Below are positions 6,606 through 18,545 of a DNA stretch of 64,000 nt, in pieces. Numbering within the stretch: position 1 is the stretch's first letter; the number at the start of each line of letters is the position of its first letter. Source of the DNA: Planctomycetota bacterium (GTDB lineage Bacteria > Planctomycetota > Planctomycetia > Pirellulales > Pirellulaceae). A program made the translations under genes and the position numbers. The stretch spans positions 1 through 64,000 of the forward strand of contig JACNKX010000100.1 in assembly GCA_014381825.1 (NCBI GenBank), given 5' to 3'. The notes beneath the pieces are model-generated. The model did not search any database. It saw only the letters and a program-made list of their open reading frames with translations, and had not been told where the DNA came from.

Positions 6606-9600
6606 TTAAGTCGCTTCGAGAATGCTGGCGCCGAAGGTAAAGCCACCGCCAAATGCGCAAATCCCTAAGCGGTCGCCCTTCTTTGCATTCGGTAAGATCT
6701 CGCTCAAGCAAAGCGGGATACTCGTCGACGACGTGTTCCCGAAACGGCGAATATTGCTGTAGACGTTGGCGTCGATGCGATGTTGGATCGCGTCGATGAT
6801 TCGTTGATTGGCCTGGTGAGGCACGATCATCTTCAGATCGTTCACACCGACACCTTCGCGTTGGCAAACACGATTCAGCGAAGCGATCATCGAACGTACC
6901 GCTTCGCTGAAGACTTTCTTACCCTGCATTCGAATGAAGCCGCCATCTCGAAATGGAACGGTCAGTGCTCCGCCATCTTCGCCATTGGCCGACAGTTCAG
7001 GTCGATAGAGCTTGCCCTTAGCGTTCTCGTAGTGGCTCTCGCCATATAGCACCGTTGCGGAAGCGGCGTCACCGAATAGGATCGCCGTATCGAGATCCTT
7101 TCGATCTAACAGCGGCGAGAGGACTTCTGTCGTAACAACCAAAACTCGTGCATCAGGCTTGCTTTGCAGGAAGTCATAGCCGGCCTGCAATGCATACAGG
7201 TATCCACTGCAGGCTGCACTGATATCAAACGCTTGGAGCGTGGCGTTGGACCTGCCGCGAACGAGCCCGCTGAGTACTTGGCAGGCCATCGAAGGCGTTA
7301 CCGAGGTTGGGCTCGTTGTGCTGCAAATCACCAAGTCGAGTTGATCGACGAGTAAGTCTTCTTGTTCCAGCGTTCGTTGTGCGGCTTGGACGGCCATGTT
7401 GACGGCGTTCTGTTCTCCCGCCACCCAATTGCGACTTTCAATGCCCGTCAGCCGCATAATGTCTTCGACGGTCATGTCGTCGGTCGAAGCAAGTAGCTCG
7501 CTATTGGAAACGATTCGATTTCCGGTCACTGCGGCGATCGAAGAGAGCCCCACATCGAAGGCCCGGCGATCGTATCGTTGAGGCAGAGGCAGGCGCTCGG
7601 ATGGTCGCCGGCGGACGAGGATTGGCTCGCCTGGATTCTCGAGCAAGACTGCGTTCTTGTGTACGACCGAGTCATCGGTTCGAATTCGCATCATCGGTTT
7701 GCCAACCGCGATGCTACCTCCTTCTTCGGCCAATAGCTGCGCGACTTCGCCTCCGACGGATGTTGTCATTTCGAAGACGGACTTTGCCGCTTCGACCGAT
7801 GCGACGACGTCCCCCTTCTGAACTTGCGAGCCAACCGTCGTTAAAAACTCGACGACCGTCACGGTTTCGTCGGATGGAGCTGACCCGATGGCGAGCAAGT
7901 CAAATAGTCCCTCTTCTTGTTCGGCGGGTTGTTCCCACGTGAGATCAAAATCAAGCAGCGCTGCCGCGGTCGATAGCACACGTTGGTACGAAGGCATAAC
8001 TTCGATTTGGCTGCCGTAATGGCATGGAATGAAGGTGTCGGCTCTCGTGATGCGACGCATCGAAACTGGAAAGCGAGACTTTTCGCCGACCGTCGCAAGC
8101 ACTTCGCTGCCAAAACCACAGGTGTGATTGTCTTCGTGGACGACGACCAACCGAGATGTTTTTTCGACCGATGCGACGACCATGTGTTCGTCCCACGGTG
8201 AAAGCGAACGCAGATCGATAACTTCAACTTCAACGCCAGCTCGTTCGAGGTCGTCTGCCGCTTTCTCACAGAGCGACACGGTATTGCCCCATGCGACGAA
8301 CGTGATATCGCGACCGGTGCGTACTTTGCGAGCCGAGCCAATCGGCACGAATTGCTCAGCAATGTTCGGTGACGTTGCGAGCGACACATCGTTCAACATT
8401 GCCTTTGGATACAAGATCAATGACGGACGTTCTGATTTGAAAGCCGCATTCAGCATCCCCGCCGCATCGCACGCGTTGGACGGCATGAAGACGTCGATGC
8501 CAGGTGTATGTGTGACGACCGATTCGAATGTTTGGGCGTGATACGGACCCAAGCCAGGACGATAGCCACCGCAGGCGGCCATAACAACCAACGGAACTTT
8601 CCACTCGCCGCCCGTCCGCCAAAACATAGTCGCCAGTTCGGAAGTGAGCTGGTTGTAGGCCAACGGAAGGAAATCTGCGAACTGAATGCACGCCACAGGG
8701 CGCTGGCCTGCCAATGCTCGACCGATCGAAGTTCCAACGATCGTCGACTCGGATAGCGGCGAATTGCAAACTCGCCCCTCGTACTTTGTGCTCAAGCCAC
8801 GTGTGACACCAAACACATCACCCTTCGGATCTTCAACGTCCTCACCATAGATGAAGACTCGCGAATCTGTTGCCAGTTGATGGTTAAGAACTTCTCGCAG
8901 CGCCTGTCCCATCGTGAGCGTCGCATTCTCGTCATCGCCTCGCACTTCATAAGAAGGATGCGTCAATTCGACAGGAATCGTCGCCTTCGCTGATAGTTGC
9001 GGTGTTGGGTCAATTCCCGCCAAAGATTCTTCGGCGGCGGCAGCAACTTCAGATTCCACGTTTCGGCGGAGTGCTGACAAGACGGATGTCTCGCAACCGT
9101 CTGCGAGTAGTCGATGTTCGAGTTGTGTGAGCGGATCACCTGTCGTTGTCGCGTTTTGAATCTCGTCCGCGGTGCGATACACACGCTGATCATCGGCGTT
9201 TGTGTGACTTGCCAGTCGTTCTGCCTCGAAGAGCACTAACTGGGGAGTGCGCTCTTGTCGCATCTGCGCAACGATGGAACCGAACTGTTCGAAGCAAGCT
9301 GCGGCATCTCGGCCATCAACTCGCTGGATCGGTAACCCGTAATACGAGGACGCATCGCCAGCTGGCAGCGAGAAGAAGGTGCGACCGCGTGTCGTCGTCG
9401 AAATCGCCAAGCGATTGTCTTCGACGACAAAAAGTACCGGCAATTGGTCGCGGACGGCAGCGGCGATGGCCTCGGTAACCTCACCTTGTTGTGTCGTTCC
9501 GTCTCCATTCGCACAGTAAACGATGGGGCAAGATGCTTCGCCTTTCACAGCCGCAGCGACACCAACCGACTGCAGCGCGTTGTTGCCCGTCGGCGTCACC

Positions 9601-9923
9601 ATGCTCAGAATGTGCAAGCCCGGGTCGCTGTAAAAACCACTCATCCTCCGACCACGCGACGACGAACTGTCTTTGCACAAAAAGGCGTCGAAGAACGAAC
9701 GAATCGGCATTCCGCGCGCGACGAGTAACGCTTTGTCGCGATAATGACAGTGAAGCCAGTCGGCTTCGGTCATGTGAGTCGCGATTGCCGCAGTTGATTC
9801 ATGCCCGCTGCCAGCAACATGGAAAAACGCTTCGCCACGCTGCGTGAGTTCCTGCTCGACTTTGTCGATCTGCCGCGCGGTGTACATCGCGCGGTAGAGA
9901 GTCAGCAAGGAATGCTGGTTCAT
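6606..9923 (-). CDS. Fused 2-oxoacid dehydrogenase E1-alpha/E1-beta, lipoyl domain and beta-ketoacyl-ACP synthase III
   Basis: A 1105-residue protein with no frameshift. Residues 1-320 are E1-alpha with the thiamine diphosphate motif GDGTTQQGE...EDN (140-170) and SHTNADDQRVYR (239-250). Residues 330-655 are E1-beta (GEDV, PLSESTIVG, IQFADF, YHAQTFES). Residues about 672-750 form a lipoyl-type domain with lysine 714 in VEAAKSV. Residues about 785-1105 are a complete KAS III: catalytic Cys905 (SAACSGY), His1036 (VPHQANQR) and Asn1063 (FGNTSS). The E2 acyltransferase domain is absent and KAS III stands in its place. Known chemistry: E1 decarboxylates a 2-oxoacid onto the lipoyl arm; KAS III condenses an acyl thioester with malonyl-ACP. 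Inference: the acyl group passes directly to Cys905, making a beta-ketoacyl-ACP primer for branched lipids or a specialised metabolite. Start 9923 is supported by GAGGT seven bases upstream. Confidence 0.9.
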   Translation of the reverse strand: MNQHSLLTLYRAMYTARQIDKVEQELTQRGEAFFHVAGSGHESTAAIATHMTEADWLHCHYRDKALLVARGMPIRSFFDAFLCKDSSSSRGRRMSGFYSDPGLHILSMVTPTGNNALQSVGVAAAVKGEASCPIVYCANGDGTTQQGEVTEAIAAAVRDQLPVLFVVEDNRLAISTTTRGRTFFSLPAGDASSYYGLPIQRVDGRDAAACFEQFGSIVAQMRQERTPQLVLFEAERLASHTNADDQRVYRTADEIQNATTTGDPLTQLEHRLLADGCETSVLSALRRNVESEVAAAAEESLAGIDPTPQLSAKATIPVELTHPSYEVRGDDENATLTMGQALREVLNHQLATDSRVFIYGEDVEDPKGDVFGVTRGLSTKYEGRVCNSPLSESTIVGTSIGRALAGQRPVACIQFADFLPLAYNQLTSELATMFWRTGGEWKVPLVVMAACGGYRPGLGPYHAQTFESVVTHTPGIDVFMPSNACDAAGMLNAAFKSERPSLILYPKAMLNDVSLATSPNIAEQFVPIGSARKVRTGRDITFVAWGNTVSLCEKAADDLERAGVEVEVIDLRSLSPWDEHMVVASVEKTSRLVVVHEDNHTCGFGSEVLATVGEKSRFPVSMRRITRADTFIPCHYGSQIEVMPSYQRVLSTAAALLDFDLTWEQPAEQEEGLFDLLAIGSAPSDETVTVVEFLTTVGSQVQKGDVVASVEAAKSVFEMTTSVGGEVAQLLAEEGGSIAVGKPMMRIRTDDSVVHKNAVLLENPGEPILVRRRPSERLPLPQRYDRRAFDVGLSSIAAVTGNRIVSNSELLASTDDMTVEDIMRLTGIESRNWVAGEQNAVNMAVQAAQRTLEQEDLLVDQLDLVICSTTSPTSVTPSMACQVLSGLVRGRSNATLQAFDISAACSGYLYALQAGYDFLQSKPDARVLVVTTEVLSPLLDRKDLDTAILFGDAASATVLYGESHYENAKGKLYRPELSANGEDGGALTVPFRDGGFIRMQGKKVFSEAVRSMIASLNRVCQREGVGVNDLKMIVPHQANQRIIDAIQHRIDANVYSNIRRFGNTSSTSIPLCLSEILPNAKKGDRLGICAFGGGFTFGASILEAT

Positions 9924-14946: not shown

Positions 14947-15336
14947 ATGTCCGCATTTACCCATCACATCTTCATCTGCGGCAATCAGCGCAGCCCAGGA
15001 CATGCGCGCGGTTGCTGCGACGCAGATGGTTCCGAACAGTTACGAACCGCTTTCAAGGCAGAAGTAAAGCGTCGTGGCTTGACTCCGCTGGTGCGAGCGA
15101 ACAAAGCCGGTTGTCTCGATCAATGCGAGCTAGGCCCAACCGTGGTCATCTATCCACAAGGAATTTGGTACGGAAATGTTCAGCTTGAAGACGTCTCGCG
15201 AATCATCGACGAGACCGTCGTCGGTGGAAAGGTTTTGGAAGACCTGTTGATCGCTGACGAGTTGCTCAACACTAAAGGAGGAACGATCCAGCCCTCGAGT
15301 TCTGATGACTCGGCAGCTGAGACCGGAGCGAAATGA
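14947..15336 (+). CDS. Thioredoxin-like [2Fe-2S] ferredoxin
   Basis: A 129-residue protein. Cysteines at 11, 23, 56 and 60 give the C-x11-C...C-x3-C pattern (ICGNQRS, GCC, AGCLDQC) of thioredoxin-like [2Fe-2S] ferredoxins, the fold also found in the NuoE subunit of complex I; VVIYPQGIWYGNV is the family's next strand. The C-terminal 35 residues are acidic and low-complexity. It should carry one electron in the cytoplasm; its partner is unknown. Its stop overlaps the trkA start by four bases (ATGA), implying translational coupling with potassium transport regulation. Confidence 0.88.
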   Translation: MSAFTHHIFICGNQRSPGHARGCCDADGSEQLRTAFKAEVKRRGLTPLVRANKAGCLDQCELGPTVVIYPQGIWYGNVQLEDVSRIIDETVVGGKVLEDLLIADELLNTKGGTIQPSSSDDSAAETGAK

Positions 15337-16679
15337 GAATCGTCATTCTGGGAGGCGGAACGGTGGGAACATCGATCGCCGGCCTGTTATGCCATCACGG
15401 TCACAGTGTGACCGTGGTCGATCGCGACGCGGCTCACGCACGCGAGATCAACAACGAACTCGACGTGCGAGCGGTCACCGGATCGGCTTCGCAATCCAGC
15501 GTGTTGTTTCAGGCCGATGTGCTGGGCGCAGACATTTGTCTTGCCGTGACCGGTGACGACGAAGTGAACATCGTCGCGGCCAGCATGGCGAAAGCGATGG
15601 GAGCTCGTCGCGCACTTGCACGCGTCTATGCACCAGTGTTTCGCGACCTGAGCACGTTTGACTACAACCGTCACTTCAACATCGACCGGATGCTAAGCTT
15701 GGAGCATCTGTCAGCGATGGAGTTGGCTCGCGGTATTCGAAATCCGGGATCCGTCGTCCTCGAAAACTTCGCTCGCGGCGAGTTGGAAGTGCAGGAAGTG
15801 GTTATTCGCGAAAGTTCCGATGCCGTCGGAGTGCCGCTCAAGGATTTGCAGCTTCCGAAGCAAGTTCGGATCGGTTCCCTCTGTCGCGGTGACAAGACTT
15901 GGATCGCTGGCGCCGCGGATACGATAGAACTCGGAGACCGCGTCACGCTGATCGGTCGCCGCGAAGATGTTGAAATTGTTCACGAGTTGATCCAGAAAGA
16001 ACGAGCCGCGAAGCAAGGCGTCGTGATCGCTGGGGGCGGCGAAACCGGCTACCATTTGGCTCGTACGCTGGAGAACGAACATTACTCTGTTGTCCTAATG
16101 GATCAAGCACCTGATCGGTGCGAGTATCTCGCGACCCATTTGGATCGAACGACGGTTGTTCAAGCCGATGCGACGCGGCGCCGAGTCTTGGAAGAAGAGC
16201 GAGTTGGCACGGCAGACTACTTTGTAGCGTGCACCGGCGACGACGAAAACAACATCATGGCCTGCGTCGAAGCAACGGATACCGGTGCCGAACATGTCAT
16301 GGCGATCGTCAGCCGACCTGACTACGCCGGAGTTGTTGGCAAGCTGGGGATCGACCTCGCGGTCAGCCCAAGAAACGTGATGGCCAAGCAAGTCCTTGGC
16401 TTCTTAAATAGCGGACCCGTTGTTTCGCGAACCTCATTGACCGGCGGAAGCATTGGCGTATACGAGATCGAAGTTCTTGAGGGTGCCCTCGCCACCGAAC
16501 ATGTGTTGGCAAATGTCCCGTTGCCCGCGTCGTGTCTGATCGCGGCAGTCATGCGAGACGACTATGTGCGGGTCCCCGGAGCTGACGATCGACTTTCGCC
16601 AGGCGAAGTTGTTGTCGCCTTGATTGACGATGTATCGCTCGAAGCCACTTTGACGCAATTCACGGTGAACGGCAAGTAG
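15333..16679 (+). CDS. trkA: Trk potassium transporter regulatory subunit TrkA
   Basis: A 448-residue cytoplasmic protein that gates the TrkH potassium channel in response to bound nucleotides. It has the full two-module architecture: RCK_N domain 1 with GGGTVGTSIAG at the N-terminus, RCK_C, then RCK_N domain 2 with IAGGGETGYHLA near residue 235 and a second RCK_C. The glycine-rich motif is intact in both halves. GGAG four bases before the ATG and the four-base overlap with the ferredoxin gene support the start. trkH follows after nine bases. Confidence 0.95.
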   Translation: MRIVILGGGTVGTSIAGLLCHHGHSVTVVDRDAAHAREINNELDVRAVTGSASQSSVLFQADVLGADICLAVTGDDEVNIVAASMAKAMGARRALARVYAPVFRDLSTFDYNRHFNIDRMLSLEHLSAMELARGIRNPGSVVLENFARGELEVQEVVIRESSDAVGVPLKDLQLPKQVRIGSLCRGDKTWIAGAADTIELGDRVTLIGRREDVEIVHELIQKERAAKQGVVIAGGGETGYHLARTLENEHYSVVLMDQAPDRCEYLATHLDRTTVVQADATRRRVLEEERVGTADYFVACTGDDENNIMACVEATDTGAEHVMAIVSRPDYAGVVGKLGIDLAVSPRNVMAKQVLGFLNSGPVVSRTSLTGGSIGVYEIEVLEGALATEHVLANVPLPASCLIAAVMRDDYVRVPGADDRLSPGEVVVALIDDVSLEATLTQFTVNGK

Positions 16680-16688
16680 GTTGCTATC

Positions 16689-18545
16689 ATGAACCTTCGC
16701 GTGGTTAGCAAATTGCTTGGCATCGTCGCTATGCTGATCGGCGGCATGATGGTGTTCAGCCTGCCGTGGGCACATCCCGCATTGGGGCGGCGCAACATGG
16801 GCGACGTCGCTGGCTTTCTCGAAGTGCGTGGATTTGTCGCGCTTGTATTGAGTATGGCAATCAGTTTCTTAGTTGGCTGGTTGCTGATTCGCTATGGCCG
16901 TGGAACAGAGATTCGTTTGTATCGCAAAGAGGCAATGGCGGTTGTCGGACTCAGTTGGATCTTGGCCACGGTACTTGGTGCGTTGCCGTTTTGGCTGCGC
17001 GGAACGTATCGCGGCCCTGCGGTGCGACTCGCGGCGGATAGCAAGACTTGGCAAGTATACGATTCAGAGAACTATCTATGGCGACACTGGGACACGAAGG
17101 ACGGAAAGCAACAGCTCGGTAACGTCGAGCATCAGGTGGTCTTGGCTTTGTATAAGGCGGGCGCGAAGGGCCTGGCGCCAGACGAGTTCGCGCGAAACGT
17201 CACCGTCGACAGCCCAGTTCAACTGCTCGAAAGACTCAAGCGTGGTGATGGTGATTGGCAAGCCGCGATCATTTTCCCGGACGAAGAGGAAGCTCCCGAT
17301 GCGCGCCGAGGAAACTATCGGTTGCGATGGATCAGGATGGGAGTTGCCGACGCGCTCTTCGAATCGCAATCTGGTTTCAGTACGACTGGCGCGACCGTTC
17401 TCTCCGATCTCGAAGATCCCGTTCTTGTTCCGCACTGCTTACTGTTTTGGCGAAGCAGCACGCACTTTCTTGGCGGACTCGGAATCATTGTTTTATTCGT
17501 TGCGATTCTTGGGCAGGGTTCCGCTGGCAAGGCGATGATGCGAGCTGAAATGCCTGGCCCGAGCAAAGATGGTTCGCAAGCGCGGATGCAGCAGACCGCA
17601 TGGCTGTTTGCCGCGATCTACTGCATTTTGAATCTGGTGCTGACGATCATCTTATGTATCCAGGGACTTAGCTTGTTCGACGCGCTATGTCACGCGTTTG
17701 GCACCATGGCGACCGGAGGATTCAGTACCTGGAACAAAAGTCTCGGCCACTTTGATAGCGCCATGATCGAGTACACGGTCACGCTCTTTATGATCATCGC
17801 AGGAACGAATTTTACGCTGCTATACTTTGTCGCGTTCGGCCAGTTCAAGCGCATGTTCGAGGACGTTGAATGGCGAACGTACCTTGGAGTGATCGCGGGC
17901 GTTACGCTTCTCGTCGTATTGACGGGACTTCGCCATGGCAACTTCGAAGGTCCGAGCGAAGCGATCCGATACGGTTTGTTCCAGGTTGTCGCGATTGTCA
18001 CGACGACGGGATTCGGAACGCACGATTTCGATCAATGGAGCAGCTTCGGACGAGGCGTGTTGTTCTTGTTGATGTTTGTTGGCGGCTGTGCCGGCAGCAC
18101 CGGCGGTGGCATGAAAGTGATCCGCCATATCCTATTCCTGAAAATCATGAAACTAGAGATTGAACAGGCATTTCACCCGAGCGTCGTCCGACCCCTTCGA
18201 CTTGGCGGCAGGCCCGTCGAAGATCCAGACCTTCGTAAGAACATCCTCGTCTACTTTGGATTGATCTTGGTCATCTTCGTCTTCAGTTGGATGTTCGTCG
18301 TGGCGATCGAGCCTGATGCGACTTGGGGCACCACGATCGAACACAAATTGATCGACAGCGCTAGCGCCGTCGCCTCAACACTCAACAACATTGGTCCGGG
18401 CCTAGGCACGGTTGGCTCGACTCAAAACTATGGTCACTTCAGCTCAACCACCAAGTTCCTATTCGTCTGGCTGATGATGATCGGCCGAATTGAGATCTTC
18501 GCGATCCTCGTGTTGTTCATGCCGTCGTTCTGGCGCAATCGATAG
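16689..18545 (+). CDS. trkH: Trk potassium uptake channel TrkH with large extracytoplasmic insertion
   Basis: A 618-residue inner-membrane potassium channel subunit, well above the usual ~480. Four pore-loop regions are visible: STTGATV (about 231), ATGGFST, TTTGFGTHD and NNIGPGLGT, plus GGCAGSTGGGMK, the loop typical of TrkH/KtrB. The extra length is an insertion at about residues 105-215 between a helix ending ALPFWLRG and the first pore loop, a part that should face the periplasm. The insert is polar, with a possible helix-turn-helix-like stretch (HQVVLALYKAGAKGL). Adjacent to trkA, its expected partner. The insertion's role is unknown. Confidence 0.93.
   Translation: MNLRVVSKLLGIVAMLIGGMMVFSLPWAHPALGRRNMGDVAGFLEVRGFVALVLSMAISFLVGWLLIRYGRGTEIRLYRKEAMAVVGLSWILATVLGALPFWLRGTYRGPAVRLAADSKTWQVYDSENYLWRHWDTKDGKQQLGNVEHQVVLALYKAGAKGLAPDEFARNVTVDSPVQLLERLKRGDGDWQAAIIFPDEEEAPDARRGNYRLRWIRMGVADALFESQSGFSTTGATVLSDLEDPVLVPHCLLFWRSSTHFLGGLGIIVLFVAILGQGSAGKAMMRAEMPGPSKDGSQARMQQTAWLFAAIYCILNLVLTIILCIQGLSLFDALCHAFGTMATGGFSTWNKSLGHFDSAMIEYTVTLFMIIAGTNFTLLYFVAFGQFKRMFEDVEWRTYLGVIAGVTLLVVLTGLRHGNFEGPSEAIRYGLFQVVAIVTTTGFGTHDFDQWSSFGRGVLFLLMFVGGCAGSTGGGMKVIRHILFLKIMKLEIEQAFHPSVVRPLRLGGRPVEDPDLRKNILVYFGLILVIFVFSWMFVVAIEPDATWGTTIEHKLIDSASAVASTLNNIGPGLGTVGSTQNYGHFSSTTKFLFVWLMMIGRIEIFAILVLFMPSFWRNR

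Follow-up and report, generated by a model that had tools for sequence, protein, structure and literature searches.

A 64,000-nucleotide stretch of DNA from a Planctomycetota bacterium of the family Pirellulaceae (assembly GCA_014381825.1, contig JACNKX010000100.1, positions 1 to 64,000; the whole stretch is called the window here) carries one 1105-codon frame on the minus strand, at 6606-9923, that encodes both subunits of a 2-oxoacid dehydrogenase (E1-alpha and E1-beta), a lipoyl domain and a 3-oxoacyl-acyl carrier protein synthase III (KAS III). This gene, referred to below as the fusion, is probably (at roughly 65%) a 2-oxoacid dehydrogenase chain in which KAS III has taken the place of the E2 acyltransferase, so that the acyl group would pass directly from the lipoyl arm to KAS III and be condensed with malonyl-acyl carrier protein (malonyl-ACP). 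Both halves are textbook enzymes. E1 and a lipoyl domain make S-acyl-dihydrolipoyl; KAS III accepts an acyl thioester on its cysteine for condensation with malonyl-ACP. Free acyl-coenzyme A (acyl-CoA) normally links the two.

Architecture of the fusion gene

The frame opens with an ATG and runs from 9923 to 6606 without an in-frame stop over 1105 residues. Six Pfam domains score above their gathering cut-offs in its product: E1_dh at residues 10-300, Transket_pyr at 336-510, Transketolase_C at 529-632, Biotin_lipoyl at 688-747, ACP_syn_III at 899-964 and ACP_syn_III_C at 1020-1103. The E2 acyltransferase domain, 2-oxoacid_dh, is absent from the same scan at E 0.001. The original prediction for this DNA had described the same four modules in one frame without an E2 domain, and had placed the codons of the lipoyl-type lysine and the KAS III cysteine at 7782-7784 and 7209-7211; the open reading frame and the Pfam scan bear out each of these points. 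The features are listed below, with counts over the 71 full-length loci described in the next section.

6606-9923, minus strand: complete fusion gene of 1105 codons and a stop codon; full length at 71 loci, with 69 distinct proteins
8964-9923, minus strand: E1-alpha module, residues 1-320, PF00676 (Pfam; structure-model match 1umb_C)
9414-9506, minus strand: thiamine diphosphate (TPP) motif in the E1-alpha module, GDG at 140-142 to N170
7947-8933, minus strand: E1-beta module, residues 331-659, PF02779 and PF02780 (Pfam; structure-model match 1um9_B)
8748-8750, minus strand: Glu392 of E1-beta, 71/71 loci
8538-8540, minus strand: His462 of E1-beta, 71/71 loci
7668-7919, minus strand: lipoyl domain, residues 669-752, with PF00364 at 688-747 (Pfam)
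7782-7784, minus strand: Lys714, predicted lipoyl attachment site, 71/71 loci
7563-7667, minus strand: linker between lipoyl domain and KAS III, residues 753-787, of varying length between relatives
6609-7562, minus strand: KAS III module, residues 788-1105, PF08545 and PF08541 (Pfam; structure-model match 2ebd_B)
7461-7463, minus strand: Asp821, at the place of Escherichia coli FabH Trp32 (CoA adenine stacking); Trp in 0/71 loci
7209-7211, minus strand: Cys905, KAS III nucleophile, 71/71
7092-7094, minus strand: Leu944, at the place of E. coli FabH Arg151; Arg or Lys in 0/71 loci
6816-6818, minus strand: His1036, KAS III triad, 71/71
6801-6803, minus strand: Arg1041, equivalent of E. coli FabH Arg249, 71/71
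6735-6737, minus strand: Asn1063, KAS III triad, 71/71

An AlphaFold model built on a 39-row alignment (mean predicted local distance difference test 85.7, predicted template modelling score 0.70) agrees with these assignments. Residues 1-322 match Thermus thermophilus E1-alpha (1umb_C; Z 37.7, root-mean-square deviation (rmsd) 2.5, 317 aligned), residues 334-659 match E1-beta of the same species (1um9_B; Z 42.5, rmsd 1.8, 319 aligned) and residues 790-1104 match Aquifex aeolicus FabH (2ebd_B; Z 39.8, rmsd 2.1, 303 aligned). For the lipoyl domain, the closest solved sequences are E2 lipoyl domains, at a weak match (best E 7e-5).

Conservation and distribution

The original prediction had proposed a search for this domain order across genomes. 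That search returned 71 full-length loci from at least two phyla, amounting to 69 distinct proteins with the window's own included; the others are 44-74% identical to it. Two pairs of loci are identical (L009 = L104, L015 = L107), and near-copies also occur (L042/L043, and L045/L047 at 98%). All six Pfam domains were found in each of the 39 fusion proteins scanned, and none of the 39 has a 2-oxoacid_dh match at E 0.001. Lys714, Cys905, His1036, Asn1063 and Arg1041 are invariant across the 71 loci, as are Asn170, His240, Glu392 and His462, which we take to be TPP-binding or catalytic residues of E1. The GDG motif is nearly as constant (G in 71, D in 69, G in 68). Loss of the lipoyl lysine or the KAS III cysteine in relatives, or a missed stop between domains, would have undermined the original prediction; both residues are kept throughout, and a single open frame in all 71 loci excludes the stop.

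Nucleotide comparison points the same way. Against the relative L031, identity at codon positions 1, 2 and 3 is 0.72-0.84, 0.83-0.97 and 0.37-0.47 over five stretches, a pattern that indicates constraint along the entire fusion protein. Third positions are the most divergent in each stretch compared, both against L031 and against L032. The fusion is a genuine gene and not an artefact.

Its distribution is centred on two groups. In the window's family, Pirellulaceae, the fusion is intact in 39 of 149 genomes and in pieces in six more, giving 45 among the matches listed; the fragmented copies reflect contig ends or, in G015, a single frame change. An even draw over the window's phylum found it in 3/246 genomes, namely the window's own and two others, one of which (G388) has a full-length copy. 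In Verrucomicrobiota it is intact in 27/288 genomes and in pieces in 2/288 (G392 counted). Scanning a single genome for each species gave 24 loci, of which 19 have the full fusion (L008-L025, L028), nearly all in metagenome-assembled genomes (MAGs) of the Verrucomicrobia group; of the remaining five, L030 is not a fusion and four are truncated where their contigs end.

A deltaproteobacterial MAG has one further full-length copy (L013, G686:C684), on a contig of 4.5 kb. This MAG is the only carrier among 235 genomes of that phylum, with none in the other 234 searched, and mis-binning or horizontal transfer are both possible. The G015 copy (L171, G015:C74:14000-19000) is frame-shifted within E1-beta and reads as two overlapping open frames. 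A split at a domain boundary was considered for this copy and rejected, as the frame change falls inside E1-beta; it is either a sequencing error or a sign of a decaying gene.

Replacement of the E2 domain

The nearest relatives that lack KAS III hold an E2 domain at the same place. Among 20 such relatives fetched, 17 are single-chain E1-E1-E2 proteins and three are E1-E1 genes adjoining a lipoyl-E2 gene. BLAST detected a lipoyl domain in 16 of the 17 single chains, Pfam found both lipoyl and E2 domains in 5/5 E2-type relatives scanned, and L062-L064 and L066 add further E1-E1-lipoyl-E2 single chains. In a tree of the E1 region (63 rows), 33 KAS rows and two contig-cut fragments form a single clade (support 100 in the SH-like approximate likelihood ratio test, SH-aLRT). 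Its sister group (SH-aLRT 95) is made up of E2-type chains that belong to a different family of planctomycetes. The KAS III modules of the fusions likewise form a single clade among KAS III proteins (SH-aLRT 100). These are quick trees with SH-aLRT support only, thinned by identity to 33 of 72 KAS rows for E1 and 14 of 71 modules for KAS III, and the E1 tree has two long end branches.

Since the KAS forms make up one clade inside an E2-type tree, KAS III replaced E2, which supports the original prediction's statement that KAS III occupies the place of E2. Most simply, it took E2's place in a pre-existing single chain in one exchange. Fusion and E2-type chains also tend not to share a genome. 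In Pirellulaceae, 45 fusion genomes stand against 28 with E2-type E1-E1 genes, and among the matches listed the two are shared in 1/149 genomes where 8.5 would be expected (hypergeometric p 2e-4, uncorrected for kinship). For this count genomes were assigned by eye; E2 was confirmed in six (L134-L139) of the 28 genomes without the fusion, and the short pieces of E1 in G031 and G131 did not enter it.

The exchange seems to have been accompanied by a change in spacing. In 39/39 KAS forms the lipoyl lysine lies 70-71 residues past Pro644, compared with 87-117 residues in the E2-type chains (13 measurable of 22). On the other side, K714 and N807 are 90-114 residues apart in 39 proteins. The flexible tether between E1 and the lipoyl domain thus seems to have been shortened and fixed at the swap, with the lipoyl-KAS side still variable.

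Some details of the E2-type relatives can be added. L065 (G258:C124) is an E1-E1 chain that goes out of frame past E1-beta, and its close relatives run on into lipoyl and E2 domains; L065 itself does not enter the E2-type set. In 20/25 loci (L062-L064, L066, L120-L127, L132-L139) the E2 domain of the sister proteins has the motif HRxxNG; the motif scan was blank in L065 and L128-L131. The E2 of a separate pair in the window's own genome (L157, on C81) reads HRxxDG. A Pfam E3-binding match was found in 0/3 of the E1-E1-lipoyl-E2 single chains scanned (from L062-L064, L066, L120-L136).

The KAS III module

The module has the predicted KAS III fold and a full triad, and by sequence it is outside strict FabH: it scores 232.2 bits against a cut-off of 292.1 for TIGR00747 (FabH), and the adenine contacts of FabH are missing. 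In PMC4606726, overlaying the CoA complex of E. coli FabH on a related FabH places the adenine between Trp32 and Arg151. Over the 71 loci, the Trp32 position holds Asp in 52, Ala in 14, Gly in three and Glu in two, and never Trp, which is kept in 18/18 FabH-grade genes from 17 carrier genomes. The Arg151 position holds Phe in 42, Gln in 11, Leu in eight, Pro in eight, Ala in one and Thr in one, and neither Arg nor Lys in any. In contrast, the equivalents of Asn247 and Arg249 are kept in 71/71 together with the Cys-His-Asn triad. Arg249 of E. coli FabH serves ACP docking, and its retention is consistent with condensation with malonyl-ACP.

The original prediction had the acyl group reach KAS III independently of CoA. 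The missing tryptophan agrees with a CoA-independent lipoyl donor, but its absence is no proof of one. The control set of 30 KAS III rows holds two loci twice (L003 = L084, L006 = L090); the 18 FabH-grade genes and the 10 other paralogues fetched are distinct loci, and the carrier genomes hold further paralogues. The Thr28 position has Thr in 8/30 control rows and is hence uninformative.

E1 modules and likely substrate

The E1-alpha module scores best against branched-chain enzymes, with 109.5 bits for T. thermophilus and 98.5 for human branched-chain 2-oxoacid dehydrogenase (BCKDH), compared with 77 bits for the pyruvate dehydrogenase (PDH) 1w85/3duf and 68 for human PDH. Nevertheless, Pseudomonas putida BCKDH gives the lowest score (60.5 bits). 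These scores lean towards the branched-chain type without deciding the matter, with a branched-chain 2-oxoacid the likeliest substrate. In the KAS III acyl pocket, the Phe87 gate position is Thr in 56, Ser in 14 and Ile in one of the 71 loci; we assume that a residue other than Phe here allows longer acyl groups. Taken together, the E1-alpha lean and the non-Phe position 87 make branched or medium acyl groups the preferred starters, at about even odds.

Loss of the catalytic Glu of E1-beta was also considered, given a GED/GQD variation (position 361 is Gln in 31/71), and was rejected: Glu392, which we take to be the TPP-activating Glu, is invariant.

Proposed mechanism and genomic support

In the proposed cycle, E1 would decarboxylate a 2-oxoacid on TPP and reductively acylate the lipoyl group that Lys714 carries. 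From the resulting S-acyl-dihydrolipoyl arm the acyl group would then move directly to Cys905, without an acyl-CoA stage, and KAS III would condense it with malonyl-ACP to give 3-oxoacyl-ACP, with which a fatty-acid (or polyketide) chain starts. The lipoyl arm would be reoxidised with NAD+ by a free E3 whose gene lies elsewhere in the genome.

Genes for the accessory steps are present in most of the carrier genomes tested. LipA occurs in 17/17 carrier genomes, and E3 scores above the cut-off in 16/17. The original prediction had seen no E3 near the fusion, and indeed none lies on the window's contig (C23) among the matches listed for its own genome; the one match above the cut-off (473 bits) is on C87, in an E3-AceE-AceF array (AceE 1427 bits). 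The same genome has LipA on C146 and a canonical FabH on C238.

In five Verrucomicrobia genomes (G392-G396), no match other than the fusion spans E1-alpha, an absence that is provisional in draft genomes. Other matches to the E1-beta region are weak there (E 4e-9 to 2e-5) and lie in frames of 679-750 residues, a size that suggests DXS. Each genome has a single E2 match, adjoining E3, and the one scanned (in G392) is closest to AceF. An acyl group made by the fusion E1 seems to have no dedicated E2 as acceptor in these genomes.

Weighing the alternatives

Several observations weigh against direct lipoyl-to-KAS III transfer. G134 (89% complete) has no E3 above the cut-off, the sole such case among the 17 carriers, and G035 carries both a KAS form and an E2-type relative. 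A canonical FabH gene that passes TIGR00747 is present in all 17 carrier genomes tested, which makes the fusion dispensable for ordinary initiation. The fixed E1-lipoyl spacing suggests a lipoyl domain packed on E1, possibly limiting the reach of the arm. Trp32 is also missing from all 10 of the other paralogues of KAS III that were retrieved in carrier genomes. Its absence would hence mark the domain as not an ordinary FabH and is no specific mark of a lipoyl donor. The loss of Arg151 is weak evidence, because the 18 FabH controls themselves have Arg in only nine (Lys in four, Pro in three, Thr and Glu in one each). The phosphopantetheine-contacting Arg36 is kept in 65/71 loci (Leu in the window protein), although this is neutral because ACP bears the same arm. 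Finally, the module passes the broad NCBIfam KAS III model NF006829 (261.8 bits against 249), a family score with which ordinary CoA-using activity is compatible.

This last point also fits a fusion for proximity, in which E1 and the lipoyl domain supply acyl groups in trans to an E2 on another protein and KAS III uses the resulting acyl-CoA as an ordinary FabH would. The window's own genome has an E3 and two other E2 genes (C81, C87), and the entry of Bkd-made acyl-CoA into fatty-acid initiation is a known route, as PMC10026030 describes. However, both E2 genes sit beside an E1 of their own, the CoA-adenine tryptophan is missing in 71/71 loci, and exactly the CoA-acylating domain went in the swap; this explanation is unlikely. 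It is also unlikely that the donor is made as proposed and then used for something other than fatty-acid initiation, with KAS III making the beta-keto starter of an unusual lipid or a polyketide, or using an acceptor other than malonyl-ACP. Such a role would fit the canonical FabH alongside the fusion and a gate at position 87 consistent with a pocket larger than acetyl. Against it stand the FabH-like Arg249 and triad and the absence of a biosynthetic cluster: neighbour families recur in at most 5/19 loci of the species-level scan (18 Verrucomicrobia-group, one planctomycete) and in at most 4/19 planctomycete loci, mostly close relatives, with genes called crudely as longest open frames. Without recurring neighbours the product is unreadable from gene context, and the specialised metabolite that the original prediction had offered as one outcome finds no neighbour pointing to it.

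A pyruvate-using E1, which would provide an acetyl-CoA-independent route to acetoacetyl-ACP, is improbable. In NCBIfam the top-scoring models for the E1 parts carry PDH names, but every match is under its cut-off; the E1-alpha scores favour branched-chain enzymes (the low P. putida value aside), and the genome already has the AceE array on C87 and a PDH-like E1/E2 pair on C81. A false join of unrelated genes, by chimeric assembly or a missed stop, is refuted: the frame change in the G015 copy could be cited for it, but one frame is seen in 69 distinct proteins from genomes of at least two phyla. Direct transfer from the lipoyl arm to KAS III is the reading we retain.

Relation to known systems and significance

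The closest known proteins are the E1-E1-lipoyl-E2 single chains of Planctomycetota and Verrucomicrobiota (L062-L064, L066, L120-L136), for which no name was found. They share the order of domains and 33-43% E1 identity among the matches listed, but end in an E2 acyltransferase (by BLAST, and by Pfam in three scanned) and have a longer, variable E1-lipoyl linker where measured. With Bkd/BCKDH (T. thermophilus 1um9) the fusion shares the E1 fold, catalytic residues and lipoyl carrier; unlike them, it has no E2 catalytic domain to pass the acyl group to CoA. Judged by domain content, it is outside the E1-E2-E3 complex family, having E1, a lipoyl domain and a genomic E3 without E2. Likewise, the KAS III module resembles FabH (E. 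coli FabH, A. aeolicus 2ebd) in fold, triad and ACP-docking Arg, with 33-37% identity in structural alignment, and differs in lacking the CoA-adenine tryptophan, in falling under the TIGR00747 cut-off and in its attachment behind a lipoyl domain. The branched fatty acid pathway of bkd and fabH (PMC10026030) also leads from 2-oxoacid through acyl to 3-oxoacyl-ACP, but there the acyl group moves as acyl-CoA between separate proteins. The ladderane genes, as treated in passages of PMC2649909, were considered and have no bearing on the fusion.

No published description of an E1-E1-lipoyl-KAS III architecture was found among the papers listed in searches of open-licence literature, a body that leaves most subscription journals outside. 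To our knowledge, the domain combination, the exchange of E2 for KAS III and the implied CoA-free transfer are new, although each domain belongs to a known family. Keto-acid carbon may enter lipid building without coenzyme A, and a conserved protein from many genomes of two phyla, whose catalytic residues are intact and whose CoA-acylating domain is gone, makes a CoA-free route from 2-oxoacid to lipid starter directly testable. At slightly better than even odds, dihydrolipoyl thioesters can act as direct ketosynthase donors, in a new class of acyl transfer, and the fusion is a self-contained, CoA-free module for carbon-carbon bond initiation that evolved once, in the planctomycete-verrucomicrobial lineage. 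If true, it would offer a natural scaffold with which lipid and polyketide engineering could load unusual starters.

Gene neighbourhood

Among the close relatives L144, L145, L152 and L153, the neighbourhood of the fusion is mostly kept and includes transporter-like, aminotransferase-like and other genes, named by eye. Elsewhere in the window, at 14947-18545, a small ferredoxin-like gene precedes TrkA- and TrkH-like genes for potassium uptake (also by eye); these are unrelated to the fusion.

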